64,000 bases of DNA, from assembly GCA_028288625.1 (NCBI GenBank), contig JAQBNI010000074.1:1-64000 (forward strand), written 5' to 3'. Below are positions 14,301 through 64,000 of this stretch, piece by piece; within the stretch, counting starts at the first letter, position 1, and every line of letters starts with the position of its first letter. Under the pieces are notes generated by a model that was given only the letters and a program-made list of their open reading frames with translations, was not told the origin of the DNA and did no database searches. Made by a program: the position numbers and the translations under genes. This stretch comes from Bacteroidota bacterium. GTDB taxonomy: Bacteria; Bacteroidota; Bacteroidia; Chitinophagales; JADIYW01.

Positions 14301-14335
14301 TACGAAATACGAACTACGCAATACTCAATACTAAC
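14301..14335. repeat. Heptamer array A (5 units) abutting the leuD start codon
   Basis: Five consecutive 7-bp units sharing TAC at positions 1-3, such as TACGAAA, TACGCAA and TACTCAA. The last unit ends at 14335 and the leuD ATG begins at 14336. The array replaces the place where a ribosome-binding region would be. Confidence 0.8.
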
Positions 14336-17262: not shown

Positions 17263-17311
17263 CACCTCGTCTACCATCTCGCATCTCATATCTCACTTCT
17301 CACATTTATCT
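17263..17311. repeat. Heptamer array B (7 units) between convergent genes
   Basis: Seven 7-bp units, five of them beginning TCT, such as TCTCGCA, TCTCATA and TCTCACT. The array fills the whole gap between the propeller gene and the convergent DUF4293 gene and supplies that gene's stop codon (17306-17308). Confidence 0.8.
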
Positions 17312-23476: not shown

Positions 23477-23533
23477 AATGAGTAATTAAATTCTTAACCG
23501 CATTAGAGCAGAATTGTTTACGGCTTATTAAAA

Positions 23534-23568
23534 TAAGTTATAAGTAAGAAGTTATAAGCAAGTGAAGA
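23534..23568. repeat. Heptamer array C (5 units) upstream of crtI
   Basis: Units such as TAAGTTA, TAAGTAA and GAAGTTA in exact 7-bp register. It lies between crtI (start 23476) and the end of the AddB-like gene (23570), and no consensus promoter for crtI is seen in the remaining spacer. Confidence 0.75.
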
Positions 23569-31095: not shown

Positions 31096-31185
31096 ATTTA
31101 ATGAAACCATTCAGTGATATAATTCACAGCTCGGTGATAAATAATGTACACATGATCATCATAATAAGATATAACTTTATTGTTA

Positions 31186-34100: not shown

Positions 34101-34779
34101 TTCTACAACATTTTGCCAGGGCGATTCTGTGATACTCACTTCAAGTGTAGGAAGTTCTTATTTATGGAGTAATGCATCAACATCGCGAAGCATCACTGTA
34201 AAAATTGCAGGAAATTTTTCTGTGAAAGTAACAGATGCGAACGGATGTTCAGCAACTTCAGCAATTACAACGGTTGTCATCCATCTACCGCAAAACGGCT
34301 TATCCATACAGTTAAGAAATGATACTTTATTCACACCATATAACGCAACAAACTATTGGTATTTAACGGGCACATCTGCGCCTTTTGATTCAGGATCATA
34401 TTACAAATGCAGACAAACGGGAAATTATTTTGCTGAAGGAAGAGATGTAAACGGATGCCTCGCGACTAGTGTAGCTCTATTTGTAAATTGTGATCTTACA
34501 GGTATTATTGTAAAATCAAATGAGTCTCAATTGAATGTTTATCCAAATCCTGCAAACAGTATATTGAATATTGATTGGACAAACACAGAAAATGATGACT
34601 ATTCGTTTGTTTTAATAAATTCATTGGGACAAATGGTGATCAATGAAAAAGAAAATATCATCAATAATTCTCTGCACAAAATTATTTCTACCGGCGAGCT
34701 TTCTGATGGGATATATATTCTTATTATAGAATCCAAAAAGATGAGGAAGACTATAAAAGTGAATAAGCTTACTCAATAA
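31186..34779 (+). CDS. Secreted M23 peptidase with nine 72-residue repeats and a type IX sorting domain
   Basis: About 1,197 residues. Order: signal peptide (ending TLTVLAQ); an LytM/M23 zinc peptidase (about 90-265) with HTGTDIAIYPF, the active-site region YWHMKKN and GPHLHFEVW; a domain of unclear type (about 270-380); nine tandem modules starting near 385 that each contain TTFCQGDSVILT, YLWSN and GCSATS; a diverged tenth module; and a type IX C-terminal sorting domain (LNVYPNPANSILNIDW to the end). The protein is probably exported and attached to the surface. ATG 31186 is chosen over TTG 31180. The peptidase motifs are intact, so peptidoglycan or protein cleavage is possible. Confidence 0.88.
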   Translation: MKVYIKICISLFLLFNAFTLTVLAQHKIPVPEVSNEYSFKNNDGQHPCITPSEYLFIEKEIAENCRLLHINNTVQHRPLSTALNWPLRAAAGLTNCSYYAITAHVDQDPAAGTFKDYNCGSIAYDTHTGTDIAIYPFSFLMMDNNQVEVIAAAAGTIVGRADGNFDRNCSSNNLPANYIIVQHADGSNALYWHMKKNSVTSKIVGQTVAAGEYLGVVGSSGSASGPHLHFEVWTGNTVSTMIDPFSGTCNLINASTWWASQKPYTEPSVLKASVHTTDVVFPGCPTTETSNESTSYTIPFQGSGLPPNAAKFYIFLRNETSGLVANMSILNPNSTVFTSWSITSSVSHVSSYWGWTKNLPLTAGTYTFKAVYNGITCSQTFDIITSGCVATITASGPTTFCQGDSVILTASTGASYLWSNGLTTKSITVKTAASYTVKVTCQDASSATSAATVVTVNSLPTATISTSGSTTFCQGDSVILTSTVGSSYLWSNGSTTRSITLKTAGNYSVKVTGANGCSATSSITSVIVNSLPTATISTSGSTTFCQGDSVILTSSIGNSYLWSNGSTTRSITVKTAGNYSVKVTAANGCSATSSITSVIVNSLPTATISTSGSTTFCQGDSVILTSTVGSSYLWSNGSTSRSITVKTAGNYSVKVTGANGCSATSAITSVIINSLPTATISASGSTTFCQGDSVILTSSVGSSYLWSNGSTSRSITVKTAGNYSVKVTGANGCSATSSITSVIVNSLPTATISTSGSTTFCQGDSVILTSTVGSSYLWSNGSTSRSITVKTAGNYSVKVTGANGCSATSAITTVTVNSSPTATISTSGSTTFCQGDSVILTSTVGSSYLWSNGLTSRSITVKTAGNYSVKVTAPNGCSATSAITTVTVNSLPTATISTSGSTTFCQGDSVILTSSVGSSYLWSNASTSRSITVKTAGNYSVKVTGANGCSATSAITSVIVNSLPTATISASGSTTFCQGDSVILTSSVGSSYLWSNASTSRSITVKIAGNFSVKVTDANGCSATSAITTVVIHLPQNGLSIQLRNDTLFTPYNATNYWYLTGTSAPFDSGSYYKCRQTGNYFAEGRDVNGCLATSVALFVNCDLTGIIVKSNESQLNVYPNPANSILNIDWTNTENDDYSFVLINSLGQMVINEKENIINNSLHKIISTGELSDGIYILIIESKKMRKTIKVNKLTQ
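32340..34285 (+). repeat. Nine tandem 216-bp coding repeats
   Basis: Copies are 216 bp apart (for example 32569 and 32785) and encode 72 residues each. The first copy is diverged and the inner ones are nearly identical at DNA level, with copies alternating between two versions (STVGSS and SSVGSS). Homogenisation by recombination is likely, and copy number could vary or be misassembled. Confidence 0.85.
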
Positions 34780-36864: not shown

Positions 36865-38007
36865 TTATACTACAGCATCCCGGATAAGGTCTGCAACTTT
36901 TTTTGCTGAAATATCCCAGGTAAAATCCTTTGCACGCCGGAGCCCTTTTTCAATAAGATCGTTTCGCAAATTTTCATTGGCGATCAATTCATTCATCGCT
37001 TGTGAAATACTTGTGATATTATGCGGATCTACAGTAATTGCTGCACCTGCGGAGATTTCCGGCATGGAAGAAGTATTGGAAGAGATCACGGGAACTCCAA
37101 GGCTCATGGCTTCAATAACTGGTATACCAAAGCCTTCAAAAAAACTTGGATACACCAGTGCAAAAGAATTTTTTAATATTTCCAGCAGCATCGATCGTTC
37201 AATTTTTTCAATCCATACAATATCATTTTTAAATTTCATGGATGAATAAAAATTTTCCAATTCATTATTCATCCATGCTTTTCTTCCGATAATAACTAAT
37301 TGATGGGAATGAGAATAATCCGTTTTAAAATTTTCAAATGCTTTCAATAATCCTAAAACATTTTTTCGTGGATGAACAGCGCCGATGAATAAAAAGTATG
37401 GTTTTTTTAATGACCATAATTTTTCTGCCATTGACCATTGACTATTGACCATTGACATTTCATCCAAATCAACAGCATTGTACACCACATCAATTTTTTC
37501 TTCATCAATTTTATATCTTTCAATAATATCCTGTTTGGTGAAATTCGAAACAGCTAAAATTTTTTCTGCTTTTGCACAATACTTCGGAACAAAATATTTA
37601 TAATAGTTGCGCACTAAAAATGGTGTGTGTGTTTCATAGTGTTCGAATGCAAGATCATGAATGGTGATGATCTGCGGAACCTGCGTATTCAAACTTCCAT
37701 ATCCATCGGGTGAAATAAAAAGATCTGCGTTCAATTCTTTTAAAACTTTTGGCACAGATCTTTCAAACCACCAGTACCACAATAACGGATGCCTCGCTTG
37801 TGGAGAGACAATTAATTCTTTCACATTCTCATCAAAAATAAATTCTGCGTCAGGTTTCCTGTCAAACAAAAAATAAAATTCGTATTCCGGCAAAAGTTTT
37901 ACAACGCGGCGAAAAATTTCCTGGGTATATATGCCAATTCCTTCTAATTTATTTTTCAATAAAAAACGCGTATTAACTGCAACTCTTTTTTTAGCTTCCT
38001 TTTTCAC
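36865..38007 (-). CDS. GT4-family glycosyltransferase carrying an in-frame heptamer array
   Basis: 380-residue GT-B fold glycosyltransferase. It has the N-terminal EGIGIYTQEIFRR segment, the central YFLFIGAVHPRKNV motif and the C-terminal donor motif SFFEGFGIPVIEAMSLGVPV. It should transfer a nucleotide-sugar residue in envelope or polysaccharide synthesis. The start is GTG 38007. At 37428-37462 a TCAATGG-type heptamer array adds about 11 residues (MSMVNSQWSMA) between VDLDE and AEKLW, in the variable linker before the second Rossmann domain. The reading frame is kept. Confidence 0.88.
   Translation of the reverse strand: MKKEAKKRVAVNTRFLLKNKLEGIGIYTQEIFRRVVKLLPEYEFYFLFDRKPDAEFIFDENVKELIVSPQARHPLLWYWWFERSVPKVLKELNADLFISPDGYGSLNTQVPQIITIHDLAFEHYETHTPFLVRNYYKYFVPKYCAKAEKILAVSNFTKQDIIERYKIDEEKIDVVYNAVDLDEMSMVNSQWSMAEKLWSLKKPYFLFIGAVHPRKNVLGLLKAFENFKTDYSHSHQLVIIGRKAWMNNELENFYSSMKFKNDIVWIEKIERSMLLEILKNSFALVYPSFFEGFGIPVIEAMSLGVPVISSNTSSMPEISAGAAITVDPHNITSISQAMNELIANENLRNDLIEKGLRRAKDFTWDISAKKVADLIRDAVV
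37428..37462. repeat. Heptamer array D inside the glycosyltransferase gene
   Basis: Four units of CCATTGA/CTATTGA (TCAATGG on the coding strand) in exact 7-bp register plus a degenerate fifth. It lies at residues about 182-193 of the protein. Confidence 0.85.
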
Positions 38008-44991: not shown

Positions 44992-47900
44992 TTATACTTT
45001 TTGTATGAATAAATTTAAGACCTCACCATTTATATCAAAATCTTTACCGTTTGATATATCGCCTGAAAATAAGATATCGCTTGCTAAAGTTTCGTTGCAA
45101 ATATATTCTTTATATCTATTTAAAACATTGTTGAGAACCAACTGATTTTGCACATGTAAAACGATCTTGTCAGTAACTTCAAAGTTCGATTCTTTGCGTT
45201 CCGTTTGTACTTTATTGACGATCTCGCGTGCAAAACCTTCGTCTCTTAACTGATCGGAAATCGTAATATCAAGCGCAACCGTTATGCCGCTATTTGATGC
45301 GACCAGCCAGCCCTGGATATCATCGGAAATAATCTCCACTTCTTCCAATAAAATATTAAACGTTTCGCCATCTAAAATGAGTTCAAGACTTCCATTTTGT
45401 TCCAGTTGTGCGATCTGTTCATTATTCAACTCCTGTATCACTTCAGTGGCAGCTTTCATTTTTCCACCTAATTTTTTCCCAAGCAATTTAAAATTCGGTT
45501 TTACCTTTTTGGAAATGATGCCTGCAGTATCACTGATATATTCTATCTCTTTTACATTCACTTCCGACAAGATCAATTCTTTCACTTGATCAATTTGCTG
45601 AATAAAATGCTTGTCGATGGCAGGGATCAGAATTTTCTGCAGCGGCTGGCGAACCTTTATTTTTGTTTTCTTTCGAAGTGATAATACCAACGAGGAGATC
45701 TCCTGCGCCCATTCCATACGCTGCTCGAGTTCTGCATCGGTTAAATTCAGATCTGCAATTGCTAAATAAGAAAGATGAATGGATTCTTTTGTGCCGTTTA
45801 AATTCTGGTACAACCAGTCGCTGAAAAATGGCGCTACAGGACTCATCAGTTGTGCAACCACATTCAGGCATTCATGCAATGTTTCAAAAGCAGCTTTTTT
45901 ATCTTTCGATAATTCATTTCCCCAGAATCTCCTTCTCGATAATCTTACAAACCAGTTGGACAAATGCTCGATCACAAAATCTTCTACAGCACGTGCAGCC
46001 TTTGTTGGCTCATAATCTTCATACGCTTCCGTTACCTCTTTGATTAAGTTATTTAATTTAGAAATTATCCAACGATCAATTTCAGATCTTTCTTCAATAG
46101 GAATAGAATTATTTTTATCGATAGTGAAGCCGTCGATATTAGCGTAGATCGCAAAGAAATTATATGTATTGTATAATGTTCCGAACAATTTTCTCCCGGA
46201 TTCTGCAAGTCCTTCAATATCGAATTTTAAATTATCCCACGGCTGAGAATTGGAAATGAGATACCATCTCGTTATGTCGGCTCCGTATTTTTCTATAGTT
46301 GTAAAAGGGTCGACGGCATTGCCTAAACGCTTCGACATTTTATTGCCGTTCTTATCCAACACTAAGCCATTAGACACTACATTTTTATAAGCAACAGAAT
46401 CAAATAACAGCACCGCAATAGCATGGAGTGTGTAAAACCATCCGCGCGTCTGATCAACGCCTTCCGCAATAAAATCAGCGGGAAACGACTTTTCAAAAGT
46501 TTCCTTATTTTCAAAAGGGAAATGCCATTGTGCATACGGCATGGCGCCGCTATCAAACCACACATCTATCAAATCGGATTCCCGGCGCATCGGTTTTCCT
46601 AAAGGCGACACTAAAATAATTTCATCAACATACGGCTTATGTAAATCAATGTTGAATGATGAATGTTGAATGTTGAATTTGTTTTTATCGAGAAGTCCAG
46701 CATCGATTGACTTTTGAATTTCATTGTTCAATTCTTCAATAGAACCGATACAAATTTCTTCCGCTCCGTCTTCGGTTCTCCATATATTTAAAGGCGTTCC
46801 CCAATAACGTGAACGTGATAAATTCCAATCTACTAAATTCTCCAGCCACTGCCCAAAGCGACCACTACCCGTACTTTCCGGTTTCCAATTGATGGTTTTA
46901 TTCAATTCCATCATTCGCTCCTTTGCAGCAGTAACCTTAATAAACCACGAATCCAAAGGATAATAAATAACAGGTTTATCCGTACGCCAGCAATGCGGAT
47001 ACGAGTGCTCATACTTTTCAATTTTGAAAGCTTTATTTTCCTGTTTCAGCTTTACACAGATATCAATATCAACAGAAACATAATTCGGATCATCTTTATA
47101 ATCCTTTACATATCGACCGGAAAATTCTCCAACGCCATCAATAAATTTTCCTTCCTTATCTACAAGCGTTAAAGTGCCGATACCATTTTCTGCAGCCACT
47201 TTCATGTCATCCGCACCAAAGCTCGGCGCGATGTGCACGATACCTGTTCCATCAGAAGTTGTAACAAAATCTCCGAGCACGACGCGGAATGCATCACCAT
47301 CAATATTTTCTTTTTTATTCGCTTCAAACGGCAACAATTGCTCATAGCGCATGCCTTCGAATTCTTTTCCTTTAAAGCTTGCCAAAATTTTATAAGGCAA
47401 ATTCTTTCCATCATTTTGATAAGATGAAAAATCTTTATTCTCATTTTCTTCCTGGAAATATTTCCCTAATAATTCTTTTGCTAAAATTAATCTGACTTGC
47501 TGATGCGTATAAGGATTGAAAGTTTCTACTAAGCTATAATCAATATTTTTTCCGACGGCTAAGGCTGTATTAGAAGGCAGTGTCCACGGCGTCGTCGTCC
47601 ATGCAAGAAAATAAATATTGTCAGCGCCGCCTTCTTTTTGCAATTCTTTCAACGGTGAACTGTGGTCCGTCGACTGTGGACTAACTTTAAACTGCGCCAC
47701 ACAACTCGTATCCTTTACATCGCGGTAGCAACCCGGTAAATTTAATTCGTGTGAGCTTAAACCGGTTCCCGCAGCAGGAGAGTATGGCTGAATTTTTAAG
47801 CCTTTATATAAATATCCTTTTTGATAGAACTCTTTTAAGATCCACCAGATCGTTTCGATGTATTCATTTTTAAAAGTGATGTACGGATGTTCGAGATCCA

Positions 47901-48336
47901 CCCAGTATCCCATTTTAATGGTGAGATCATCCCATACATCTTTAAACTTCATCACTTCTTCGCGGCATCGCTCATTATATTCTGCAACAGAAACTTTTGT
48001 CCCGATATCTTTCTTAGTGATGCCCAGCATTTTTTCTACCTGCAATTCCACGGGAAGTCCGTGCGTATCCCAGCCGCCCTTCCTTTTTACCTGGTAACCC
48101 TGTAAAGTTTTGAAACGGCAGAATATATCCTTTAAGCCGCGCGCCAGCACGTGGTGAATTCCGGGTAAACCGTTTGCACTCGGCGGACCTTCGTAAAACA
48201 CATATTGAGGTTTTCCTTCACGTGAGGAAATGCTTTTTGCGAAAACATCGTTTTCTTTCCAATAAGCCAGTATTTCTTTCTCAATTTGTGTTTGAGAAAG
48301 ATTTTTGACCTCCCTGTATTGCTTTCTGCCTGACAT
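44992..48336 (-). CDS. ileS: Isoleucyl-tRNA synthetase carrying two in-frame heptamer arrays
   Basis: 1,114-residue class I synthetase. The HIGH-type motif reads GLPGIHHVLARGLKD, the editing domain has WTTTPWTLPSNTAL, and the KMSKS-type motif is NKMSKRLGNAV. The N-terminus MSGRKQYREVKNLSQ is plausible, with a -7 box TATCTTTG at 48370-48363. Two stretches are made of heptamer arrays: residues about 219-228 (SPQSTDHSSP, 47654-47681), before the editing-domain motif, and about 551-563 (KFNIQHSSFNI, 46648-46682). Both lie in variable loops and keep the frame. It is co-oriented with the DksA-like gene 1 bp away. Confidence 0.95.
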   Translation of the reverse strand: MSGRKQYREVKNLSQTQIEKEILAYWKENDVFAKSISSREGKPQYVFYEGPPSANGLPGIHHVLARGLKDIFCRFKTLQGYQVKRKGGWDTHGLPVELQVEKMLGITKKDIGTKVSVAEYNERCREEVMKFKDVWDDLTIKMGYWVDLEHPYITFKNEYIETIWWILKEFYQKGYLYKGLKIQPYSPAAGTGLSSHELNLPGCYRDVKDTSCVAQFKVSPQSTDHSSPLKELQKEGGADNIYFLAWTTTPWTLPSNTALAVGKNIDYSLVETFNPYTHQQVRLILAKELLGKYFQEENENKDFSSYQNDGKNLPYKILASFKGKEFEGMRYEQLLPFEANKKENIDGDAFRVVLGDFVTTSDGTGIVHIAPSFGADDMKVAAENGIGTLTLVDKEGKFIDGVGEFSGRYVKDYKDDPNYVSVDIDICVKLKQENKAFKIEKYEHSYPHCWRTDKPVIYYPLDSWFIKVTAAKERMMELNKTINWKPESTGSGRFGQWLENLVDWNLSRSRYWGTPLNIWRTEDGAEEICIGSIEELNNEIQKSIDAGLLDKNKFNIQHSSFNIDLHKPYVDEIILVSPLGKPMRRESDLIDVWFDSGAMPYAQWHFPFENKETFEKSFPADFIAEGVDQTRGWFYTLHAIAVLLFDSVAYKNVVSNGLVLDKNGNKMSKRLGNAVDPFTTIEKYGADITRWYLISNSQPWDNLKFDIEGLAESGRKLFGTLYNTYNFFAIYANIDGFTIDKNNSIPIEERSEIDRWIISKLNNLIKEVTEAYEDYEPTKAARAVEDFVIEHLSNWFVRLSRRRFWGNELSKDKKAAFETLHECLNVVAQLMSPVAPFFSDWLYQNLNGTKESIHLSYLAIADLNLTDAELEQRMEWAQEISSLVLSLRKKTKIKVRQPLQKILIPAIDKHFIQQIDQVKELILSEVNVKEIEYISDTAGIISKKVKPNFKLLGKKLGGKMKAATEVIQELNNEQIAQLEQNGSLELILDGETFNILLEEVEIISDDIQGWLVASNSGITVALDITISDQLRDEGFAREIVNKVQTERKESNFEVTDKIVLHVQNQLVLNNVLNRYKEYICNETLASDILFSGDISNGKDFDINGEVLNLFIQKV
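46648..46682. repeat. Heptamer array E inside ileS
   Basis: Four units of AATGTTG/AATGATG in exact register plus a degenerate fifth; on the coding strand the unit is CAACATT. It encodes about residues 551-563. Confidence 0.85.
47654..47681. repeat. Heptamer array F inside ileS
   Basis: Four 7-bp units GGTGAAC, TGTGGTC, CGTCGAC and TGTGGAC; columns 3 and 7 are invariant (T, C) and column 2 is always G. It encodes about residues 219-228. Confidence 0.8.
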
Positions 48337-48537: not shown

Positions 48538-50874
48538 ATGAAATCTTTCCTTAAATACATACCTTTTTTACCGGGCGTGCTTTCCATTTTAGCGCTGTTG
48601 CACATTAACTTGTCGATGGCGCAAAAAGCTCCGCTCGGAAGCTGGACCGCGCATTTGCCGATGGTCAGCGGGACTTCGGTTTGTCAAAGCACGAACAACA
48701 TATATGCAGCTTGTACGAACGGCGTGTTAAGCGTCAACATAGATAACGGCTTGCTTGAAAAATATACAAAGGTGATCGGGTTGGCGGAAGTGTTTGTGTC
48801 GCAGGTTGGATATGATACGGCGACATCTACCTTAGTGATCGGTTACGCAAATTCCAATATTGATCTCATTCAAAATGGGAAGATCGTTAACCTCCCTTAT
48901 TTAAAGAATGCAGCGATCTCAGGCGATAAGAACATTTATTACATTTTTTGCAGGGATAGTATTGCGTATATCGGCACAGGCTTTGGCTTAATGCAGGTGG
49001 ATCTTGTAAAACAGGAAATTTCTGAAACATATACATTCAACAATGGTGTATCCAACGATCGTGTGAATGCAGTGTGGGCGGATGAAACTGCGATCTATTG
49101 TGCGACGACAGAAGGCATAGTAATGGGTAAGATCGCAGCAAATGTAAACCTGCTAAATTTTAATGACTGGGTAAAATATTCTTCAGGAATACCTGCAAGT
49201 GAAGCGAGTGCGATCACGCAATATCAAAATAAAATTATCGCTGCAGTGGGCAATACTTTATACCAGTTTGACGGAACGAACTGGTCTGTATTTTTTATGG
49301 ATGCAAATTGGCTCACGATGCATTTGAATAATTCTTACGGGCAACTGCTTATCGCGCAGCAAAAAAGTGTTGGAGGAAATATTGTTGACAAGCGCGTGGG
49401 AAGATGGAATGGCAGCGCTTTCACTTTTTATTCCGGTCAGTTTAATATAGAGCGTCCATTGCAGGTCTTACAGGATAAGAACGGCGAGTTGTGGCATGCA
49501 GATCTTTACCGCGGACTGGTGCATCAGCAGGGTGGAAATTTCAACGTGATCGCTCCGAATGCACCTTACAGCATTAACTGCAAGGAAATGGATTACATGA
49601 ACGGAACGATGTGGGTGTCATCTTCCGCAATAAGAAACGGCTGGAACCCCGACAACCTACCTGATAGCAGATCTTTTTATGCATGCACTAATTATACATG
49701 GACAAATTACACGCAATATGATCTCCCCGTATTAGATACCTTTTCACAGATCGCTGTGGTAAAAGCATTGCCGGCAGAAAATAAAGTGCTCTTCGGCGCA
49801 GCGAGTTTCGGTACGGGAGGTATTATGGAATTTTCTCCTGCTGATAAATCATACAAGATCATTAAGTATGCACCAAATGTAACTCCTGCGTTTCGTATCA
49901 CAGGCGCTGACGTGGATGCGCAGGGGAACGCATGGTTTTCGAATGCGTATTCTTCAGCGCCTATTATTTGCAGGAAGAAAGATGGCACTTATACTTTTTT
50001 CAATTCAGGATTTTTAAACGGTATCGTGGTAAAAGATATTCTTGCCGATGATTATAACCAGATCTGGGTGGCGAAAGAAAGTGCGGGTGGAGGATTGGTA
50101 GTTTTAAATTACGGAAATGATATTGATGATAAATCGGATGATACCTATTATAATTTTGCTGCAGGAAGAGGTGCGGGAAATTTGCCGATCAACGATGTGG
50201 TCTGCATGGCAAAGGATAAAGATGGTGTGATCTGGCTCGGCACTTCGCAAGGAATTGCGATTGTTTCGTGCGCGGGTTATGTAACAGAGAATGCATGCGA
50301 AGCGGAACAGATCTGTATCAACAGGAATGATGGCAGCGGTTTTTGCGATAATTTACTGGAAGATGAAATTATAAATTGCATTACTGTAGATGCAGCGAAC
50401 CGCAAATGGATCGGTACAAACAACGGGATATTTTTAGTGAGTGCGGATGGACAAAAAACCATCCATTATTTTAATGAAATAAACTCTCCGCTGCTCGCAA
50501 ATTATGTTCGGTCAATTGCGATCAACCCTGAAAACGGGGATGTATTTATCGGAACTGAAAAAGGAATTTGCACATACAGGGCTGAAGCTACTTCTACAAC
50601 GGATAATACGGAAGCTCCTTATGTTTATCCGAATCCTGTGCGCCATGAATACGATGGACCTATAGCAATTGCTGGTATTCCCGACAATTGCAATGTGAAA
50701 ATTGTTGATGTAAGCGGTAACCTGGTTTTTGAAAGTACTGCCTTGGGCGGGCAAGCAACGTGGGATGGAAGATTGACAAATGGTGATCGCGCAGCGACAG
50801 GAATTTATTTTGCATTATGCCAGGGTTCCGATAAGAAACAAAAAGCGAAACTGAAATTTTTGCTGGTACATTAA
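48538..50874 (+). CDS. porZ: Type IX secretion system protein PorZ-like
   Basis: 778 residues, close to the length of PorZ, the surface component of the type IX attachment complex. It has a signal peptide ending in NLSMAQ, then two beta-propeller domains rich in two-component-regulator-propeller-like blades (NDRVNAVWADETAIYCATTEGI; INDVVCMAKDKDGVIWLG), and a C-terminal sorting-domain-like end (VYPNPVRHEYDGPIAIAG...ATGIYFALCQ). PorZ binds A-LPS and aids cargo attachment by the PorU sortase in better-studied species. It is a single gene followed after 27 bp by the convergent DUF2779 gene. Confidence 0.85.
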   Translation: MKSFLKYIPFLPGVLSILALLHINLSMAQKAPLGSWTAHLPMVSGTSVCQSTNNIYAACTNGVLSVNIDNGLLEKYTKVIGLAEVFVSQVGYDTATSTLVIGYANSNIDLIQNGKIVNLPYLKNAAISGDKNIYYIFCRDSIAYIGTGFGLMQVDLVKQEISETYTFNNGVSNDRVNAVWADETAIYCATTEGIVMGKIAANVNLLNFNDWVKYSSGIPASEASAITQYQNKIIAAVGNTLYQFDGTNWSVFFMDANWLTMHLNNSYGQLLIAQQKSVGGNIVDKRVGRWNGSAFTFYSGQFNIERPLQVLQDKNGELWHADLYRGLVHQQGGNFNVIAPNAPYSINCKEMDYMNGTMWVSSSAIRNGWNPDNLPDSRSFYACTNYTWTNYTQYDLPVLDTFSQIAVVKALPAENKVLFGAASFGTGGIMEFSPADKSYKIIKYAPNVTPAFRITGADVDAQGNAWFSNAYSSAPIICRKKDGTYTFFNSGFLNGIVVKDILADDYNQIWVAKESAGGGLVVLNYGNDIDDKSDDTYYNFAAGRGAGNLPINDVVCMAKDKDGVIWLGTSQGIAIVSCAGYVTENACEAEQICINRNDGSGFCDNLLEDEIINCITVDAANRKWIGTNNGIFLVSADGQKTIHYFNEINSPLLANYVRSIAINPENGDVFIGTEKGICTYRAEATSTTDNTEAPYVYPNPVRHEYDGPIAIAGIPDNCNVKIVDVSGNLVFESTALGGQATWDGRLTNGDRAATGIYFALCQGSDKKQKAKLKFLLVH

Positions 50875-55648: not shown

Positions 55649-57121
55649 TCATTCTCCCAGCCTGTTCAATCCTGCCTTAGCTTCTGCATCTATGCTGTTC
55701 GTATATTCATCTTTGTCGAGTTCGATCGCTTTTTTATAATACAGGATTGCATTTGATTTTTTATGCTGCTGCTCAAATATTGCTGCCACTTTCACACAAG
55801 CATTCGCCGCAAAATAATAATCATAAGATTGTCCTTTCTGAATAGCCAGTAAATAATACTTCACTGCATCATCCGCATTATTTAACTCATCATAAATTCT
55901 TCCTTTGCGGTAATAATATTCTATCTGGTCGCGGCTGCGGGTTAATTTTTCCGGCTTTATATTATTCACAACTGTTAAAGCCTTATCAAAATAAGATCCG
56001 TCGGATAAAATTCTAGACTTTAATAACTCTTTGTTTGGAATAAAATTTTGTTCTGCTTCTTTCTGTGCGGATTTATCTTCGTCAGTCGGCGCATCTTTTA
56101 CCTGCAGGATCTGCTGCATATATTGTTTGTATACGTCGGGATTGCCGTTTATAAGGTTGTACCACGCGAGTTTGCGGTATGCCTCTTTCTGATAAGATCG
56201 TCCTTTGTTATTTACAATGAATTTTTTAATGTATACATCTGCATCCGAATCCAGTTTATTGAGTTTTGCATTGCCGTATAAGAAATCGAGAAAAGGGAAA
56301 GGATAATATTCACTTCCTGTTGGATGATTAGTTAGTAGAGAAATTACCTTGTCGTTTTTTCCAGTGTGAGAAGCAACTGTGGCTGCAATAAAATAATTCA
56401 ACAGATTGTCGCCAAGCGGGATATTTGTATTTTCGATCATATTCCATGCAGTCGTTTTATCTTTCTGCAAATGCAGCACCAGCAAGGTATACATGATGAT
56501 CGTCTCTTCCTTAAACTGGAAATTCTCATCCTTCATCACCGAATTTAATTCTTTCAAGCCTTCGTCGATGGAGCCTTTTAAACCAAGCAGTTTGGCGCCG
56601 AATTTATATTTGTCGGGTACAGCGCCGAAGATGGTATGCAACAATCCAAGGCTCTTAAGGTTCGGTTTAAAATCGGGATATTTTTTCTGGTTGCTAAGCA
56701 ACAGCGAGTATGCTTTTTTCACTTCAAAAACCGCGGTGAAATATTCACCGAATTTTATTTTACACAGCGCCCATTGCAAATGCATATCCGCCTGCGTATA
56801 TAAATAATAAGGCGAATTAGAATTTCCATTTTTTAATTTTTCCAGCCTTGCATTCACCCTTGGCTCCATCTGGTTGAAAAGTGTTTGATTGTCGTTGACA
56901 TACAGCTTTAAAAAATCAGCATAATTTTCAATAAAAACAGGCAGGTAGTTTTTCGGATTTTCTTTTTTTTCTTTTTCCAGCATTTGCAATCCTTCTGTAA
57001 TCTTTAATTTAAAGATCGATTGGTATGCTTGCCTGCAATTCGAATTAAATTCAAAATTCTGGGCGGAAACAGAATTGATCCGGCAGCATAAAAAAAGAAT
57101 GATCAGCAAGAAAGTTCGCAC
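55649..57121 (-). CDS. Secreted TPR-repeat protein
   Basis: About 490 residues, start uncertain (GTG 57121 or TTG 57175). An N-terminal signal ends near CRINSVSAQ. The rest is helical with TPR-like repeats, the clearest at the C-terminus (YYYRKGRIYDELNNADDAVKYYLLAIQKG and the following AILYYKKAIELDK). I do not recognise a family beyond TPR. It is a single gene, divergent from the following outer-membrane protein gene. Confidence 0.72.
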   Translation of the reverse strand: MRTFLLIILFLCCRINSVSAQNFEFNSNCRQAYQSIFKLKITEGLQMLEKEKKENPKNYLPVFIENYADFLKLYVNDNQTLFNQMEPRVNARLEKLKNGNSNSPYYLYTQADMHLQWALCKIKFGEYFTAVFEVKKAYSLLLSNQKKYPDFKPNLKSLGLLHTIFGAVPDKYKFGAKLLGLKGSIDEGLKELNSVMKDENFQFKEETIIMYTLLVLHLQKDKTTAWNMIENTNIPLGDNLLNYFIAATVASHTGKNDKVISLLTNHPTGSEYYPFPFLDFLYGNAKLNKLDSDADVYIKKFIVNNKGRSYQKEAYRKLAWYNLINGNPDVYKQYMQQILQVKDAPTDEDKSAQKEAEQNFIPNKELLKSRILSDGSYFDKALTVVNNIKPEKLTRSRDQIEYYYRKGRIYDELNNADDAVKYYLLAIQKGQSYDYYFAANACVKVAAIFEQQHKKSNAILYYKKAIELDKDEYTNSIDAEAKAGLNRLGE

Positions 57122-57215
57122 GAAATAAAAATACGAAAAAATAAACAAGGCAGACCGGCTTGCAGTAGTAAACAATTCTTCATAAATAGTTCGGGCTGTT
57201 TTTAAGAGAATACTT

Positions 57216-57223
57216 TATTTTTG
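57216..57223 (+). promoter_or_regulatory. -7 element TATTTTTG of the outer-membrane protein gene
   Basis: Full match to TAnnTTTG, with ATG 57236 12 bp later; supports that start over ATA/ATT-like codons or the in-frame Met at 57221. No clear -33 TTG. Confidence 0.4.
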
Positions 57224-57235
57224 ATAAAAATCACT

Positions 57236-57910
57236 ATGAGAGTTCTTCTTTTGTTTATTGTTCTGTTTTCCTCCAGGTTTATATTCGCCCAGGATGATAT
57301 TGTTTTAGACCTTGATTCCATTAAGAATATAAAGACGACGCGTTATTCTTCAGTGAACGAAGTAGGCGTGGCGATCAATATAGGCGGAACGGTTATAGAC
57401 AAGCTGCCAAGCCATACAACAAAAACCAAGCAAGGCATCGATAAGCCAAGTGTGATGATCCGCACCGTGCATGGCATCCTTATTAACCCTAAGTTTTTTA
57501 TCGGTGCAGGATTGGGGATTGATTTTCTTCCAAGCGGGGGGACAACCGGTGGTTCTTTTTTGGTAACGTTCCCGATCTTTGCAGAATTCCGCGAATATAT
57601 TCTTGATGGGAATTTCAATATCTTTTTCTCAGAGCGTTTAGGCGGCGCAATATTCCTCGATAAAAAAGTAAACACGTTAAGCGGTCAGAAGCGCACATCT
57701 TCCGGCGCGTTCGGGGAGTTTATGATCGGCGGGAGATATGTGCCGTCCAGCAAAAAACTCGCCATACATTTTGGTGTCGGTTACCGCTTGCAACATTTGC
57801 AAACAAAAGTGAATTTTACGGATACTTCTACACCTACACAGGTAATTAGTAATGTAAAACAAATTACGATCAAACATTACATCCCGGTATCCATCGGTGT
57901 TACCTTCTAA
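57236..57910 (+). CDS. Probable outer-membrane beta-barrel protein
   Basis: About 224 residues with signal peptide (LLLFIVLFSSRFIFAQ). Alternating beta strands (FFIGAGLGIDFLP, FLVTFPIFAEFREY, FNIFFSERLGGAIF, LAIHFGVGYRLQHL) end in a barrel-like final strand (YIPVSIGVTF). No further function can be assigned. Its stop codon TAA (57908-57910) overlaps the convergent stop of batE (57907-57909). Confidence 0.75.
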   Translation: MRVLLLFIVLFSSRFIFAQDDIVLDLDSIKNIKTTRYSSVNEVGVAINIGGTVIDKLPSHTTKTKQGIDKPSVMIRTVHGILINPKFFIGAGLGIDFLPSGGTTGGSFLVTFPIFAEFREYILDGNFNIFFSERLGGAIFLDKKVNTLSGQKRTSSGAFGEFMIGGRYVPSSKKLAIHFGVGYRLQHLQTKVNFTDTSTPTQVISNVKQITIKHYIPVSIGVTF

Positions 57911-58689
57911 ATAGATTCGAGTGCAGCGTGTTGTACCCAGCCTTCTTTCCCGTTCGGCAATTCAATTTTTATCCAGCAGTTAGCATCTCTATCTGTTAGT
58001 TTCACTTTGATGCCTGCTTGTAGGGAGTCAGTTATTTTTGAGGAAGCAACAGGTGTTCTTTGAACAGGAGTTTTATCCAGGAAGACAATCGCGTATTCAC
58101 TTACCTTTTCCTGTTTGTACCGGAAGTAAGTTAAATAACCAAAACACAGAGATAATAAAAATAAGATGATACCAAATTTTCTGCTCAGGGTGCTTTTCCC
58201 AAAAAAATAAAAACAGAAAAAGATACTGCTCAACCAAAGACATGCGAGCATCCAGTGACTCCATTGATTGGAAGACCTGCTGTTCAGGAAATTTTTCGAA
58301 TACTTGGTGACGAAGAATTCCCTGCTGAATTCTATTTTAGAAAAAAGCTTGTTGTTGGTGAGAGAAAGATTCTTGTCGATATATTTATTGCCGGGATCCA
58401 GTTTTTTTGCCTTTTCGTAATACAAAATTGCTTCAGGATATTTTTGGAGGTGATAATAAGTATTGCCGAGATTGAAATATGCGTTTACATTATTTTTATC
58501 TTTTGCGATCACCAGTAAATAAAAGTGTCCGGCTTCGTCAAATTGCTTGCTTTTATAATAACTGTTGGCAGTTTTAAATAGTGTTTTTGTATCCTGAGAA
58601 AAAGAAGAAACAGAAAATAAAATAAAGTATAGTAATATCCCCGCGTGAATTACGGAGAACTTTAAAAGATATGTAAGTCTTTTATTCAT
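57907..58689 (-). CDS. batE: BatE: TPR and SH3-domain protein of the aerotolerance operon
   Basis: 260 residues. N-terminal hydrophobic segment, TPR units (TANSYYKSKQFDEAGHFYLLVI; NLGNTYYHLQKYPEAILYYEKA), a pair of transmembrane helices (about 150-190) and a C-terminal SH3-like domain (SKITDSLQAGIKVKLTDRDAN, ending KEGWVQHAALESI). It is last of the Bat genes in this operon, 0 bp from batD. It stops within a 4-bp overlap of the convergent outer-membrane protein gene. The Bat proteins aid survival under oxygen or envelope stress in known cases. Confidence 0.85.
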   Translation of the reverse strand: MNKRLTYLLKFSVIHAGILLYFILFSVSSFSQDTKTLFKTANSYYKSKQFDEAGHFYLLVIAKDKNNVNAYFNLGNTYYHLQKYPEAILYYEKAKKLDPGNKYIDKNLSLTNNKLFSKIEFSREFFVTKYSKNFLNSRSSNQWSHWMLACLWLSSIFFCFYFFGKSTLSRKFGIILFLLSLCFGYLTYFRYKQEKVSEYAIVFLDKTPVQRTPVASSKITDSLQAGIKVKLTDRDANCWIKIELPNGKEGWVQHAALESI

Positions 58690-60561
58690 CTAACTTTTTA
58701 TTTGCTCTTCAAAATCAATAATTAATTCTATCGCCTTGCTGTATGTTTGCTGCATGGAATCTTTTTTTCCAACCTGTGAAAACAAAGATTGCTCACAGGT
58801 ATCGAGCGTATGTTTCAGTTCTTCTATTTTTTCCTGCGGGATATTTTTCAGGCTTAATTTTTCCGCCATATTTTCTTTCGACAATTCACTTTGAGGAATG
58901 TATAATTTATCGGAAAGATATTCCCACAATGCGCGGATCACTTCATTATAAAATCCCTGCTCATTGTTTTGCTGCAATAATTTTTTAGCCGTTGTCATCC
59001 TTCGAAGTGCAATACGGTTCGCTTTTTTCCTTCTCAATGAAAGTAATTCGCCTTCCGTGTAATCGCGTTTCCTGAAGATAAATCCAAATAGCAACAAGAC
59101 AACCGGCAGGGCTGTGAATGTCCAGAAGCCGGCACTTCCCGCAAAATTATTTACGCTTACATACTGTTGCCGGATTCCGTAAATTCCTTTTGATGTATTT
59201 TGTTTTTCCCGCTTAAAGAAATTGATCACATTCTGGCTGATCTTCGCTTCTCCTTCCACATCGATCTCTGTTTCCGGGAGTGTGTACTTTATATAATCTC
59301 CCTTTTCAATATCGAAATAAGCAAATTCATATTTTGGCAGCTTGTACTTTCCTCCATCCTGCGGGACTAATATATATTCAAAGCTTTTTGATCCTGAAAC
59401 GACACTGCCATTGTTTGCATAATCATCTTTTATTTTAGGCTCGTACGCTTCAAACTCTTCCGGGAATTGCAATTTTGGCGGTGTGATCGATTTTAAATTT
59501 CCTGTTCCGGTATATACTACTTTAAGCGATACCGGTTCGCCGACTTTTACTTTTGTCTTATCGTATTTTGCATTAAACGAAAATTTACCAACTGCACCGC
59601 TGAAAGTCGCAGGCTTATTTTTTTCAGGTAATGGTTTCACATTAATATTTACCGTATTGCTTTTTGATTTGAATTCAAATTGACGGTAATCAGGCACCTG
59701 GAAAAATCCCATCTGCACATAAACCATCAAGTCAGCAATTCCTGAAAATTCCAATGCGGGAATGGTAAAATTTCCGGACCTGGTTGGAAATAAAGTTACC
59801 CGTGTTATTTCCTGCATGTGATAATCCTTACCATTATATTTCTCAACAACCGGCTTACGGTTTTCGTCTAATTTATATTCTTCAGATAAGAAACCATCGT
59901 ATGCCGGCATTTTGTCCGGAATTAATTGTTCGATATTCACACCAAAATATAATTTATAGGAAAGCGTGAGTTGTTCACCAACATATACAGAAGTTGTGGT
60001 CGGGATTACGCGAAGAAATACATTCTGATTAATATAATTACCGGCATCGGTTTGTTCTTTCTGATTTTGTGGCTGTGTTTGCTGCTGGAAAGCATCAAAA
60101 GGATCATTCGATTGTTGAGGTTGTTTTGCAGGAGCCACCACTTTTATATAAACTGTATTCGACCTCATTTCATTTCCGCTGATAATAGCCGCCGCCGCCG
60201 CAATCGTAAACTCACCTTGTTTCCTCGGCTGTAAAGTATACGTATAAGAAATTGATTTGGAAACCCGTCCATTCACTACGGAAACATTGGTGCTTTGAGC
60301 CGGAGCACCTAACTGATCGAAACCATCAAATTTAGGAGGAACAAAACGCTCGAGGCTGCCATTCTCCACTGAATAGGTAATATCGAATGTGTAATTTAAC
60401 GGGACTTCTCTTGTATCGGCAGTTGCAGTGAAGCGCTGTGAGAAAGAGGTGAAAGGTGTAAGTAGTAAGGTGAAAGTTATAAGGTATAAGGAGTAAGGTA
60501 TAAGTCTCAACATAGTATTGAGATACTTATTACTTACTACTTTGTACTTACTACTTTTCAT
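58690..60561 (-). CDS. batD: BatD (BatA-associated oxygen tolerance protein) with repeat-encoded signal peptide
   Basis: 623 residues. It has beta-sandwich domains typical of BatD (DTREVPLNYTFDITYSVENG; GEPVSLKVVYTGTGNLKSI), a Gln-rich linker near residue 170, and a C-terminal transmembrane helix (about 455-480) followed by a cytoplasmic helical tail with RRKKANRIALRR. The ATG at 60561 directly follows the batC stop. The first 42 residues (through FTSFSQ) are encoded by heptamer array H. An internal ATG at 60513 would start just before the hydrophobic core. It is co-transcribed with batC and batE. Confidence 0.87.
   Translation of the reverse strand: MKSSKYKVVSNKYLNTMLRLIPYSLYLITFTLLLTPFTSFSQRFTATADTREVPLNYTFDITYSVENGSLERFVPPKFDGFDQLGAPAQSTNVSVVNGRVSKSISYTYTLQPRKQGEFTIAAAAAIISGNEMRSNTVYIKVVAPAKQPQQSNDPFDAFQQQTQPQNQKEQTDAGNYINQNVFLRVIPTTTSVYVGEQLTLSYKLYFGVNIEQLIPDKMPAYDGFLSEEYKLDENRKPVVEKYNGKDYHMQEITRVTLFPTRSGNFTIPALEFSGIADLMVYVQMGFFQVPDYRQFEFKSKSNTVNINVKPLPEKNKPATFSGAVGKFSFNAKYDKTKVKVGEPVSLKVVYTGTGNLKSITPPKLQFPEEFEAYEPKIKDDYANNGSVVSGSKSFEYILVPQDGGKYKLPKYEFAYFDIEKGDYIKYTLPETEIDVEGEAKISQNVINFFKREKQNTSKGIYGIRQQYVSVNNFAGSAGFWTFTALPVVLLLFGFIFRKRDYTEGELLSLRRKKANRIALRRMTTAKKLLQQNNEQGFYNEVIRALWEYLSDKLYIPQSELSKENMAEKLSLKNIPQEKIEELKHTLDTCEQSLFSQVGKKDSMQQTYSKAIELIIDFEEQIKS
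60449..60560. repeat. Heptamer array H, two inverted arms at the batD start
   Basis: Plus-strand units of the type GTATAAG or GTGAAAG (eight, 60449-60504), then a 21-bp core holding TCTCAA / TTGAGA as a perfect inverted repeat, then units of the type CTTACTA (five, 60526-60560). The two arms are inverted relative to each other. They encode BatD residues 1-38. Confidence 0.9.
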
Positions 60562-61359
60562 CTACCAGTCTTTTTGAACTTTTGAACTTTGCGGTTTATT
60601 TTTATCCCTGATGAGTTTTTGCTCCACCTTTGTCTCGTCGTTAGCAATATCATCCAGCCTTTTCTGAGCTTCTTCCAGGCTCATTTGTCCCTGTTGTTGT
60701 TGCTTTTGCTGCTGCTGTTTATCCTGCTGACCCTGTTGTTGCTGCGGATTATTTTTTTCATTCTGTTGCGGGTTATTCTGCTGCTGATTTTTATCTTGTT
60801 TCTTATCCTGTTTATCTTTCTGATTATTTTTTTCGCCGCCTCCATTCTTTTTAATTTTAGACAATGCCATCATTAAATTATATTTTGCTTCCTGGTCTTT
60901 CGGATTTAATTTCAAAGATGTTTTATATGCTTTAGCGCTTTCTTCATATTTTTCCTGCTTGTACCATGTATTACCTATGTTGTAAAATGCTTTCGCCTGG
61001 ATGTCCGTGTTGCCGGTAAGTCTTGCAGCTGCTGCATATTGATCCTTCGCTTTGTCGAGTTCATTTAATTTAAAATAGGCATCTCCCTGGTTAAAATTTG
61101 CGCGCACATCCTTTGGCGCTTTTTGCAATGCCTTACTGTAACTTTCCGTGGCGTTGTTATATTTCTCGTTATTATAAAACCTGTTTCCCTGTCTCAATAA
61201 TTTATTGCTGCTTTGTGCAGCGCACTTATTGGAAGATAAAAGGATCCAGCCAAGTAATGCAATTTTCAGGAATACCTTTAATAGAAAAACAATGAATACT
61301 GTTTTTTTATTCTGCCTCATCCATATTTTAATATTTATTAATTTTTGTTTCATTAACAT
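60562..61359 (-). CDS. batC: BatC: TPR protein with Gln-rich region
   Basis: 265 residues. N-terminal signal or anchor (about 18-45), TPR units (RQGNRFYNNEKYNNATESYSKAL; NFNQGDAYFKLNELDKAKDQYA; NIGNTWYKQEKYEESAKAYKT), then a long low-complexity Gln/Asn/Lys tract (about 175-225) and a conserved C-terminal segment (SLEEAQKRLDDIANDETKV). It is part of the Bat envelope complex. batB ends 3 bp upstream and batD starts immediately after its stop. Confidence 0.88.
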   Translation of the reverse strand: MLMKQKLINIKIWMRQNKKTVFIVFLLKVFLKIALLGWILLSSNKCAAQSSNKLLRQGNRFYNNEKYNNATESYSKALQKAPKDVRANFNQGDAYFKLNELDKAKDQYAAAARLTGNTDIQAKAFYNIGNTWYKQEKYEESAKAYKTSLKLNPKDQEAKYNLMMALSKIKKNGGGEKNNQKDKQDKKQDKNQQQNNPQQNEKNNPQQQQGQQDKQQQQKQQQQGQMSLEEAQKRLDDIANDETKVEQKLIRDKNKPQSSKVQKDW

Positions 61360-61362
61360 CTG

Positions 61363-62391
61363 TTAAACCGTCTCGTTTTTAAAATCGAAAAATTTCTTCC
61401 GGTATGTAATAAAAAAATCTGCCAGCAATAATAGCAATGCAAATGCAAGGAAATATTGGAACTGTTCCACAAAATCCGTAAACACTTTATCGTTGATCGT
61501 TTTTGTTTCCATTTTTGCGATATCCTTTGAAAGGAATTCTGCGACCTGCTTTGCATTATCCAGGTAATAAAAATTTCCATTACCGCCTTTCGCTAATGCC
61601 TGCAGCATATTTGAATTCATTTTAGAAATGATCACCTGCCCGCTGTCATCTTTTTTCTCTGTGATCTTATTCCCATTTTGATCATAAACAGGAATGGTTC
61701 CGCCGCCCGGTGTTCCTACACCAACGGTAAATATTCTGGAGCCGTCAGATGCAATTTCTTCCGCCTTTGTGATCGCGTTTTCTTCATGATCTTCCCCGTC
61801 CGTGATCACGATAATGGCTTTATATTTTTTATCTGTTGCTTTAAATGCATTTTCTGATTGCTCCAATGCATTAGCGATAATAGTACCTTGCGTTGGAACC
61901 GAATTTGTATTAATAGAGCGCAGATATAATAACAACGACGAATAATCTACTGTCAGCGGCATTTGCAGATATGCATTTCCTGCAAAGATCACCAAGCCTA
62001 CACGGTCGCCATCCAGTTTTTTCAACAAGGTTTGGATAAGCAATTTTGATTTCTCCAGCCTGCTTGGAACAACATCCTGCGAAAGCATGCTTTTGGAAAC
62101 GTCTAATGCGATCACGACATCAATGCCTTTTCGCTGGATCTTTTCCATCTTCGTTCCCATCTGCGGCTGAGCCAGGGAAATGATCAGCAGTGATCCTATT
62201 AAGTTGAAAAAAATAAATTTAATCAGGGATTTGTTTTCGTTCCTGTCAGGCATTAACCGTTTTAAAAGATCGATGTTGCCGATCTTCTGCAATTGTTTTT
62301 TGGTCTGGTAACCGGCATAAAAATATATGACTACTGCAATTGGTATCAGCAAAAGCAGCAATAAAAATTCTGTATGTTCAAATCGGATCAT
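61363..62391 (-). CDS. batB: BatB: VWA-domain membrane protein
   Basis: 342 residues: two N-terminal transmembrane helices (about 8-25 and 55-75), a VWA domain with the MIDAS motif DVSKSM near 95-100 and further metal-site Thr/Asp (IVITDGEDHEENA), and a C-terminal helix (about 315-333). It pairs with BatA. It overlaps batA by 1 nt. Confidence 0.9.
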   Translation of the reverse strand: MIRFEHTEFLLLLLLIPIAVVIYFYAGYQTKKQLQKIGNIDLLKRLMPDRNENKSLIKFIFFNLIGSLLIISLAQPQMGTKMEKIQRKGIDVVIALDVSKSMLSQDVVPSRLEKSKLLIQTLLKKLDGDRVGLVIFAGNAYLQMPLTVDYSSLLLYLRSINTNSVPTQGTIIANALEQSENAFKATDKKYKAIIVITDGEDHEENAITKAEEIASDGSRIFTVGVGTPGGGTIPVYDQNGNKITEKKDDSGQVIISKMNSNMLQALAKGGNGNFYYLDNAKQVAEFLSKDIAKMETKTINDKVFTDFVEQFQYFLAFALLLLLADFFITYRKKFFDFKNETV

Positions 62392-63398
62392 TATGCCAAA
62401 ATCGTTTTTAAATATGTTCCGCTTAAAATAAAGTGTGCCACCAAAAACAACAATGCAAAGAATGCGAATACATGGAAGTGTTCGCTTTTCCTGTGGTAGT
62501 TGCTGATCTTTATTTTTGATTTTTCCAGTTTATCAATATTGTTATAGATGTTTTTTAAGGACGAATTGTTAGTAGCGCGAAAATAATTACCGCCTGTTTC
62601 CCGCGCCATTTCCCTGAGCAGCTGTTCATCAATCTGCACCGGCATACTTTGGTAAAATGTATTTCCGTTTTGATCCGTGAAAGGATAAGGCGCGGTGCCG
62701 TTCTTGCCAATTCCAATAGTGTATACCCGTATGCCAAAAGCCTTGGTGATCCTGATGGCGGTATATGGATCGATATAACCTGTATTGTTTACACCATCCG
62801 TCATCAGGATAATTATTTTTGTTTTTGATTTGCTTTCCTTCAGGCGTGCAACAGCTGTCGCCAGACCCATGCCAATTGCTGTTCTGTCTGTCACCATACC
62901 GCTATGGATGTCTTTAAATAAATTCATCAATACCTGGTGGTCAATCGTGATAGGGCATTGTGTAAAGCTCTCTCCTGCAAAGATCACTAAGCCTATCCTG
63001 TCATTCGGTCTGTCTTCAATAAATTTCATTGCAATTTTTTTTGCAGCTTCTAAACGATCGGGTTCAAAGTCTTTTGCGAGCATCGACCCTGAAATATCAA
63101 GCGATAAAACGATATCGATTCCCTGGGTTGAAATTTCTTTTTCAGACAACGCACTTTGCGGTCGCGCTAATGCAATCACCATAAATATATACGACAATAT
63201 TTTCAGCAAGGGTAAACCCGGCAGCAGCTTTACTCTTAAAGATCTTGACTGTGCCAGCACTCCGCCATGCTGCGGAATGCTAAAAGTTGCGTAAAAGGTT
63301 TTTCGCTTGTAGTACGACCAATACACCAATAAGGGCACTGCCAGCAATAACCAGAAATATTGTGGATGCGCAAATGTGTATGGAACCAGTCTAAACAT
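62391..63398 (-). CDS. batA: BatA: VWA-domain membrane protein
   Basis: 335 residues with the same layout as BatB: helices near 10-25 and 60-75, VWA MIDAS motif DISGSM near 100-105, DGVNNTG further on, and a C-terminal helix. BatA and BatB form the VWA core of the Bat complex. It follows the upstream operon gene by 3 bp. Confidence 0.9.
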   Translation of the reverse strand: MFRLVPYTFAHPQYFWLLLAVPLLVYWSYYKRKTFYATFSIPQHGGVLAQSRSLRVKLLPGLPLLKILSYIFMVIALARPQSALSEKEISTQGIDIVLSLDISGSMLAKDFEPDRLEAAKKIAMKFIEDRPNDRIGLVIFAGESFTQCPITIDHQVLMNLFKDIHSGMVTDRTAIGMGLATAVARLKESKSKTKIIILMTDGVNNTGYIDPYTAIRITKAFGIRVYTIGIGKNGTAPYPFTDQNGNTFYQSMPVQIDEQLLREMARETGGNYFRATNNSSLKNIYNNIDKLEKSKIKISNYHRKSEHFHVFAFFALLFLVAHFILSGTYLKTILA

Positions 63399-63401
63399 TT
63401 T

Positions 63402-64000
63402 TTAATCTTTTTGAGTCAGCGGTTTCTTCTCTTCTTCCAGCTGTTTTGTTTTGTCAATAAATTCTTTGATGATCCTCATCGAATTTTCGTTTTCAATAAA
63501 ATCCGGTTGAGCTTTTGCAAACTTTACAAAATCACTCATCACCAAAACTTCATTCAGATCTTTCTTCAGAGATTGTTTCATCATTCCTTTGTGCATTGCA
63601 CTCATCAACTCATCCGTAGTCCTTTCCATCGCAGAAATATGATACCTCAATTCGATATACGTTCTTGCAATATCAGTAAGGCGCGAATAATAATTTTTTA
63701 CCGCTCCGGTTTGCCATAGTTTATCTCTCTGCAGTTTGTCTAGTTCTTTCAATGCCCACACATGCGGCGGAAGCAGATATTTTTCATCAACAGGCTGGTT
63801 CTTTCTCTTTCTTTCTATAATATACCATGCGATCAATGCAGCTATAAGCGCTAAAATAATTGTGCCAATCAGGAAGGGAAGAATTTCTTTAAATGTCAGA
63901 GGAATTTTTAATGGCTCCTTGATCGGTTTGATATCTTTTGTGGTATCGATCTTCACTCCGGCAACATGCACTAATATAGATTCAGAAACGATAGTATCGA
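63402..64000 (-). CDS. Bat-operon membrane protein, partial (5' end beyond the window)
   Basis: The frame is open to the window edge, so the real start is outside; a GTG at 63971 is only internal. The visible 199 residues have a short outer segment, a transmembrane helix (ILPFLIGTIILALIAALIAW), and a cytoplasmic helical domain (YLLPPHVWALKELDKL, then TDELMSAMHKGM). This resembles the uncharacterised membrane protein that sits before batA in Bat operons, between a DUF58 protein and batA. moxR and the DUF58 gene are expected upstream. Confidence 0.75.
   Translation of the reverse strand, partial: DTIVSESILVHVAGVKIDTTKDIKPIKEPLKIPLTFKEILPFLIGTIILALIAALIAWYIIERKRKNQPVDEKYLLPPHVWALKELDKLQRDKLWQTGAVKNYYSRLTDIARTYIELRYHISAMERTTDELMSAMHKGMMKQSLKKDLNEVLVMSDFVKFAKAQPDFIENENSMRIIKEFIDKTKQLEEEKKPLTQKD

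Follow-up and report, generated by a model that had tools for sequence, protein, structure and literature searches.

The window analysed here, a stretch of 64,000 nucleotides from contig JAQBNI010000074.1 of a Chitinophagales bacterium (assembly GCA_028288625.1), carries a batD gene whose signal-peptide codons consist largely of short, degenerate 7-bp repeats. The batD start region is laid out as follows, in window coordinates:

58690..60561, minus strand: batD coding sequence, 623 amino acids (PF13584 BatD, E 1.2e-39)
60439..60561, minus strand: signal-peptide codons 1-41, MKSSKYKVVSNKYLNTMLRLIPYSLYLITFTLLLTPFTSFS, from the translation; cleavage is predicted before Gln42
60524..60556, minus strand: right arm, AAG-sense heptamers AAGTAGT AAGTACA AAGTAGT AAGTAAT AAGTATC, coding for n-region residues 2-14
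60446..60505, plus strand: left arm, with its AAG strand on plus; the CTT complement codes for the hydrophobic core, residues 20-38
60505..60523, minus strand: central hairpin TCTCAA-TACTATG-TTGAGA (coding strand), 6-bp stem and 7-nt loop
60511..60513, minus strand: in-frame ATG (Met17) in the hairpin loop, a possible alternative start that leaves a 25-residue signal, MLRLIPYSLYLITFTLLLTPFTSFS
60562..61359, minus strand: batC-like TPR gene (TPR families; BatC match NF047507 below cut-off)

The protein belongs to the BatD family (135.3 bits against PF13584, curated cut-off 24.1), and its neighbours, the batC-like TPR gene and VWA (BatA/BatB-like) genes, are those of a bat cluster. The batC-like stop codon directly abuts the batD ATG. 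In the congeners, batD begins at the ATG adjoining the batC stop or close by, which makes the first ATG the favoured start, and we saw no downstream start that lacks a signal peptide.

Codons 2-14 and 20-41 form two degenerate heptamer arrays that face each other around a perfect hairpin, which on the plus strand reads TCTCAA-CATAGTA-TTGAGA (stems 60505-60510 and 60518-60523). On the coding strand the left arm runs CTTATAC CTTACTC CTTATAC CTTATAA CTTTCAC CTTACTA CTTACAC CTTTCAC. Tandem Repeats Finder detects both arms (periods 7, 14 and 21). A first-pass annotation of the window had described this inverted pair, with the right arm as n-region, the left arm as hydrophobic core and the exact hairpin between them, as well as a peptide that repeats every seven residues (LIPYSLY / LITFTLL); all of this agrees with the sequence. 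It had also derived residues 1-42 almost wholly from the arrays. That holds for most of them, but the centre of the hairpin supplies residues 15-19 (LNTML), and by comparison with relatives the mature protein starts at the invariant Gln42, so that the signal comprises residues 1-41. By reading, the leader has the features of a Sec signal peptide, namely a basic n-region, a hydrophobic core and small residues at -3 and -1 (five Lys and one Arg in the first 19 residues, LIPYSLYLITFTLLL, SFS before Gln42), and the congeners agree. The array-coded leader of BatD probably serves in export.

The periodicity of the leader is not what chance or codon use would lead one to expect. We kept the peptide fixed and redrew the codons from genome usage, or shuffled the codon order, in 20000 trials each. 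With redrawn codons the 7-base periodicity of batD was reached in 0 to 2 of the 20000 trials (P = 5e-5 for the whole leader, 1e-4 for the n-region and 1.5e-4 for codons 17-42), and in codon-order shuffles it was never reached, which puts all three segments at the floor of the test (P = 5e-5). On these tests we rejected chance periodicity of the batD leader. Periodicity as a general property of signal peptides was rejected as well, for only 3 of 237 are 7-periodic. In the window, the heptamer pattern with at most three mismatches occurs 18 times, versus 6.3 +/- 2.6 in shuffles, and 10 of the 18 matches sit in the 110-bp stretch of batD.

The batD arms have many counterparts. We examined an 803-kb genome sample, taken from contigs known to carry arrays, together with array neighbourhoods, using a home-made gene caller and signal-peptide rule. 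Segments with a period of 7 bases (lag-7) number 66 in the 803-kb sample versus 3 in shuffled sequence, while other periods give 0-12. Although about 90% of the sample was called coding, 54 of the 66 lag-7 segments are intergenic. Their words are varied (AAGTAGT/AAGGTGT, AAGTCGT/AAGTTGT, AATGTTG/AATGATG, GTGAACT, CCGTGGA and others). The word pattern of batD, AAGKWRTAAGKWRTAAG, has 50 copies in this genome (G000) and 58 in its congener G006; each of the other 59 relatives has 0 to 5. Four consecutive units of it occur in 14 of 247 genomes sampled from the class.

The arrays follow the orientation of the genes. In this genome, arrays at 3' ends are in the AAG sense in 16 cases against 5, and those at 5' ends in the CTT sense in 17 against 3 (p = 1.3e-4); the same holds for G006, with 14:3 and 18:4 (p = 9e-5). 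Among 67 arrays, inverted neighbours with a score of at least 12 outnumber direct ones by 13 to 3, and in strict inverted pairs within about 150 bases the AAG arm comes first. The two strands differ in what they can encode. In simulated arrays the CTT strand never contained a stop codon and gave hydrophobic peptides, whereas the AAG strand always contained a stop. None of the three frames of the CTT strand is interrupted, and its peptides are rich in Leu, Ile, Tyr and Thr. An array that crosses a start codon should thus be tolerable in genes that need a hydrophobic leader in any case, because its CTT strand is both stop-free and hydrophobic.

Some further arrays may be recorded here. Inverted pairs with an AAG- or AATG-type arm first lie between gene ends at L110:10554-10659, L114:2141-2295 and L084:1962-2069, where they could give long mRNA 3' hairpins. 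In the window, more short heptamer arrays are found at 14301-14332, 17275-17305 and 23533-23562 (TACGAAA, CATCTCA and ATAAGTT words), and two arrays lie in frame inside large open reading frames (ORFs) of the minus strand: 37428-37456 (CCATTGA) in ORF 36865-38007 and 46648-46678 (AATGTTG) in ORF 44992-48336.

BatD is not the only exported protein with such a leader. In the neighbourhoods examined, in-frame N-terminal arrays were found in GldD of G000, G006 and G015, in a PorE-like protein of G000, G006 and G003 (and, with related words, of G004), and in a GH3 enzyme of G006. Judged from their leaders and families, BatD, GldD, the PorE-like protein and the GH3 enzyme are all exported. Three examples from this genome are:

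L047:1495-1630 (G000:C39, about 49095-49230): array-encoded GldD lipoprotein leader MKTKKSYLHLITYTLLLFYFTLLLVSC; the interval between the ATG and the stop codon ahead of it contains an inverted array
L060:1495-1650 (G000:C73): array-encoded leader MKIFNSILTFTLLLTTYYSFAQ of the PorE-like TPR/PD40 protein, a name based on partial-sequence matches below the curated cut-off
L089:1640-1785: M28 peptidase lipoprotein, with its n-region from heptamers of another word (CTGTGGA/CTGTCGT) and a matching inverted array just before the ATG

In the codon test GldD of G000 scores low at lag 7, since its units alternate every 14 bases; the case is based on exact pattern matches. The same test yielded ordinary values for several GldD and GH3 leaders that lack arrays. 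If batD were started at Met17, it would have the layout of GldD and the PorE-like gene, with the AAG arm, the ATG and then the CTT arm. Four congeners carry arrays at an equal place in the PorE-like gene but with different unit words, which suggests that these arrays were turned over in place. An independent class-wide search added a type IX secretion system (T9SS) type B cargo protein that contains SprB repeats (G154, L282; CHU_C, TIGR04131 above cut-off) and a lipoprotein-like ORF (G185, L284); the leaders of both reach the lowest P that the codon-shuffle test can give. The latter ORF is LptC-like by eye and gave no family match, and it is left out of the named cases. The counts exclude the in-frame array at L004, which begins a short and doubtful ORF.

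Genes for cytoplasmic-looking proteins present a different picture. Arrays precede frames that by eye resemble IMP dehydrogenase, a MoxR ATPase, malate dehydrogenase and D-Tyr-tRNA deacylase, and likewise a methyltransferase gene, and in each case they lie upstream of the apparent start. The frame through the upstream array is open, yet the array stays outside the apparent gene. At L074, L082, L165 and L182, CTT-sense arrays precede cytoplasmic-looking genes and are open in frame with them, so that translation begun further upstream would give the proteins a cryptic hydrophobic leader.

We then compared the batD leader with those of relatives. BatD orthologs are present in 48 of 61 related genomes. 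These were placed by alignment search, the nearest records being uncultured metagenome-assembled genomes labelled Chitinophagales, Sphingobacteriales or Bacteroidota; a search of genome contigs with the BatD sequence alone gave no match. The seven BatD proteins aligned from the genus each have a signal peptide that ends at an invariant Gln (Q42 here), and in the congener leaders a basic n-region is followed by a hydrophobic core and by a cleavage motif before that Gln. By reading, none of the other six congeners has heptamer arrays in its BatD leader. As far as sampled, BatD export is therefore older than the array, since these six are array-free yet signal-bearing. The observation of the first-pass annotation is confirmed, and its interpretation is partly supported: the idea that a repeat had been taken over as an export signal does not fit six array-free congeners with a signal peptide at the equal position. 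No relative was seen that has the same N-terminus but lacks heptamers. The leader before Gln is 41 residues long here versus about 33-37 in the relatives, consistent with some net growth, and part of the n-region resembles that of G004 (SNKYLNT versus SNKFLKS), so that some of its residues may be inherited.

We consider it likely that gene-junction heptamer arrays, with their stop-free hydrophobic strand towards gene starts, replaced the wording of the batD leader in a place where a signal peptide was already needed. The batD leader would then be one inverted pair out of the degenerate arrays that fill gene junctions throughout the genome, oriented by the genes with the AAG sense past stop codons and the CTT sense ahead of start codons. 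An array across a start codon would do no harm, and be of use, only in genes that already need a Sec signal peptide. Signal peptides are loosely constrained in sequence. The array pair would have overwritten an older, array-free batD signal peptide at the equal position, with export retained. Such tolerance would operate through purifying selection, and the arrays would presumably grow by slippage or conversion of 7-bp units.

Several points speak against this reading. Gene starts were taken from the home-made caller and by reading. Only one genome was seen to carry the batD array, the array-rich G006 assembly being without batD, and for this reason the replacement at batD is a matter of parsimony. 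A few arrays lie in frame inside cytoplasmic proteins, so tolerance is not limited to signal peptides. With so few signal peptides being 7-periodic, only a handful of genes is concerned. A wider version, in which stop-free hydrophobic arrays form a standing reservoir of signal peptides that repeatedly replaces, and maybe creates, leaders across the Bacteroidota, start hairpin included, is possible but rather doubtful.

The strongest competing explanation is that the hairpin at the start codon is a selected regulatory element (an attenuator, thermosensor or coupling device) controlling translation of exported proteins. As the first-pass annotation had proposed, the start region of the batD mRNA can fold, with z-scores of -3.1 to -3.35 against shuffles; the values are -3.9 for GldD, -2.0 for the PorE-like gene and -4.5 for its G006 ortholog, while six array-free BatD orthologs range from -1.6 to +0.7. 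In GldD and the PorE-like gene, moreover, the ATG is closely flanked by the AAG arm upstream and the CTT arm downstream. However, inverted arrays fold by construction, and this folding is by itself no evidence of regulation. A good inverted partner was found for just 13 of the 67 arrays, pairs also occur at convergent gene ends, batD orthologs manage without a hairpin, and in the sequence read for GldD and GH3 of G006 the coding arm has no comparable partner upstream. No Rfam match reached the gathering score in 57000-64000. We regard selected regulation as unlikely and the hairpin as most likely a by-product of the array pair, although it may lower translation initiation.

Insertion of a short mobile hairpin at the batD start, similar to a miniature inverted-repeat transposable element (MITE) or a repetitive extragenic palindromic (REP) element, would account for dispersed, inverted units of about 110 bp in related places of other genes. 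It is improbable, given that we saw neither conserved ends nor a fixed length, that copies vary in unit words, unit number, length and loop, and that most arrays are single. A still weaker candidate is a contingency switch, in which the heptamer number changes by slippage and frameshifts turn batD on or off. Seven is not a multiple of three, and repeats near gene starts act as on/off switches in host-adapted bacteria. Such a role of repeats is discussed in PMC4679880. The degenerate units should damp slippage, however, and conserved genes such as GldD are involved, which makes a switch very improbable. Least credible of all is that AT-rich Leu, Ile, Thr and Tyr codons merely mimic heptamers: the CTT strand does use codons favoured by such leaders, and two strict in-leader matches occur in the 59 array-poor relatives (G015 GldD and G003 PorE-like), but P is 5e-5 to 1.5e-4 with peptide or codons fixed, several array-free orthologs are ordinary, the AAG arms ahead of GldD and the PorE-like gene are non-coding, and six in-leader cases fall in two array-rich genomes.

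Replacement of leader wording by oriented arrays builds on elements that are already known one by one: heptamer arrays, the orientation rule and single repeat-derived signal peptides (PMC4692102, PMC4679880, PMC2759123, PMC2229807). The G-rich heptamers of Xanthomonas and Nostoc prefer the sense orientation within 50 bp after stops and in antisense within 50 bp before starts (PMC4692102). The arrays described here are likewise dispersed and mainly intergenic, with an excess of period 7 over other periods, a strand preference and an equal orientation rule, but their words (AAGKWRT) have no GGG run and are not G-rich, unlike those G-quadruplex words. A text search of that paper found no signal-peptide use. 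TAACTGA heptamers occur in Beggiatoaceae, Cyanobacteria and some Bacteroidetes, of which five are listed (PMC4679880). They too are short direct repeats of 7 bp close to start codons, and some of them overlap the end of an ORF or lie within one, but they have one fixed word and few inverted sets, whereas the words here include AAGTAGT, AAGGTGT and others; signal peptides are not mentioned in the text of that paper. In Yersinia, the small mobile sequence RU-2/YPAL lies in the signal peptide of YPO1552 (PMC2759123, PMC2229807), and as with batD, relatives without the repeat also have predicted signal sequences there. RU-2/YPAL is a single case of a 168-bp MITE-like element, in contrast to 7-bp arrays that recur in several gene families. 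Rickettsia palindromic elements, of 105-146 bp, occur as in-frame fusions in many proteins (Ogata et al. 2000, as cited in PMC2229807). From that citation, they resemble the present arrays as hairpin-forming repeats tolerated in frame inside conserved proteins and differ from these short arrays, which enter proteins mainly at gene ends.

We found no report of the recurrent combination of oriented heptamer arrays and signal peptides in the open-access literature, a scope outside which most subscription papers fall. It places the leaders of unrelated and partly widely conserved families (BatD, GldD, PorE-like, GH3 and type IX cargo) in one repeat class, so that one system allows tests of how leaders evolve, how proteins tolerate internal repeats and what lies behind the unexplained orientation of heptamers. 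It also shows how a repeat that looks like junk can be tolerated in a protein and serve as a part of it.

A few minor observations remain. A phage origin was considered and dropped, as no match was found, and the count of intrinsic terminators was no different from shuffles. The window also contains a much longer repeat, at 32554-34268, with a 216-bp unit in 7.9 tandem copies (87% matches), within the 1199-aa ORF 31180-34779.
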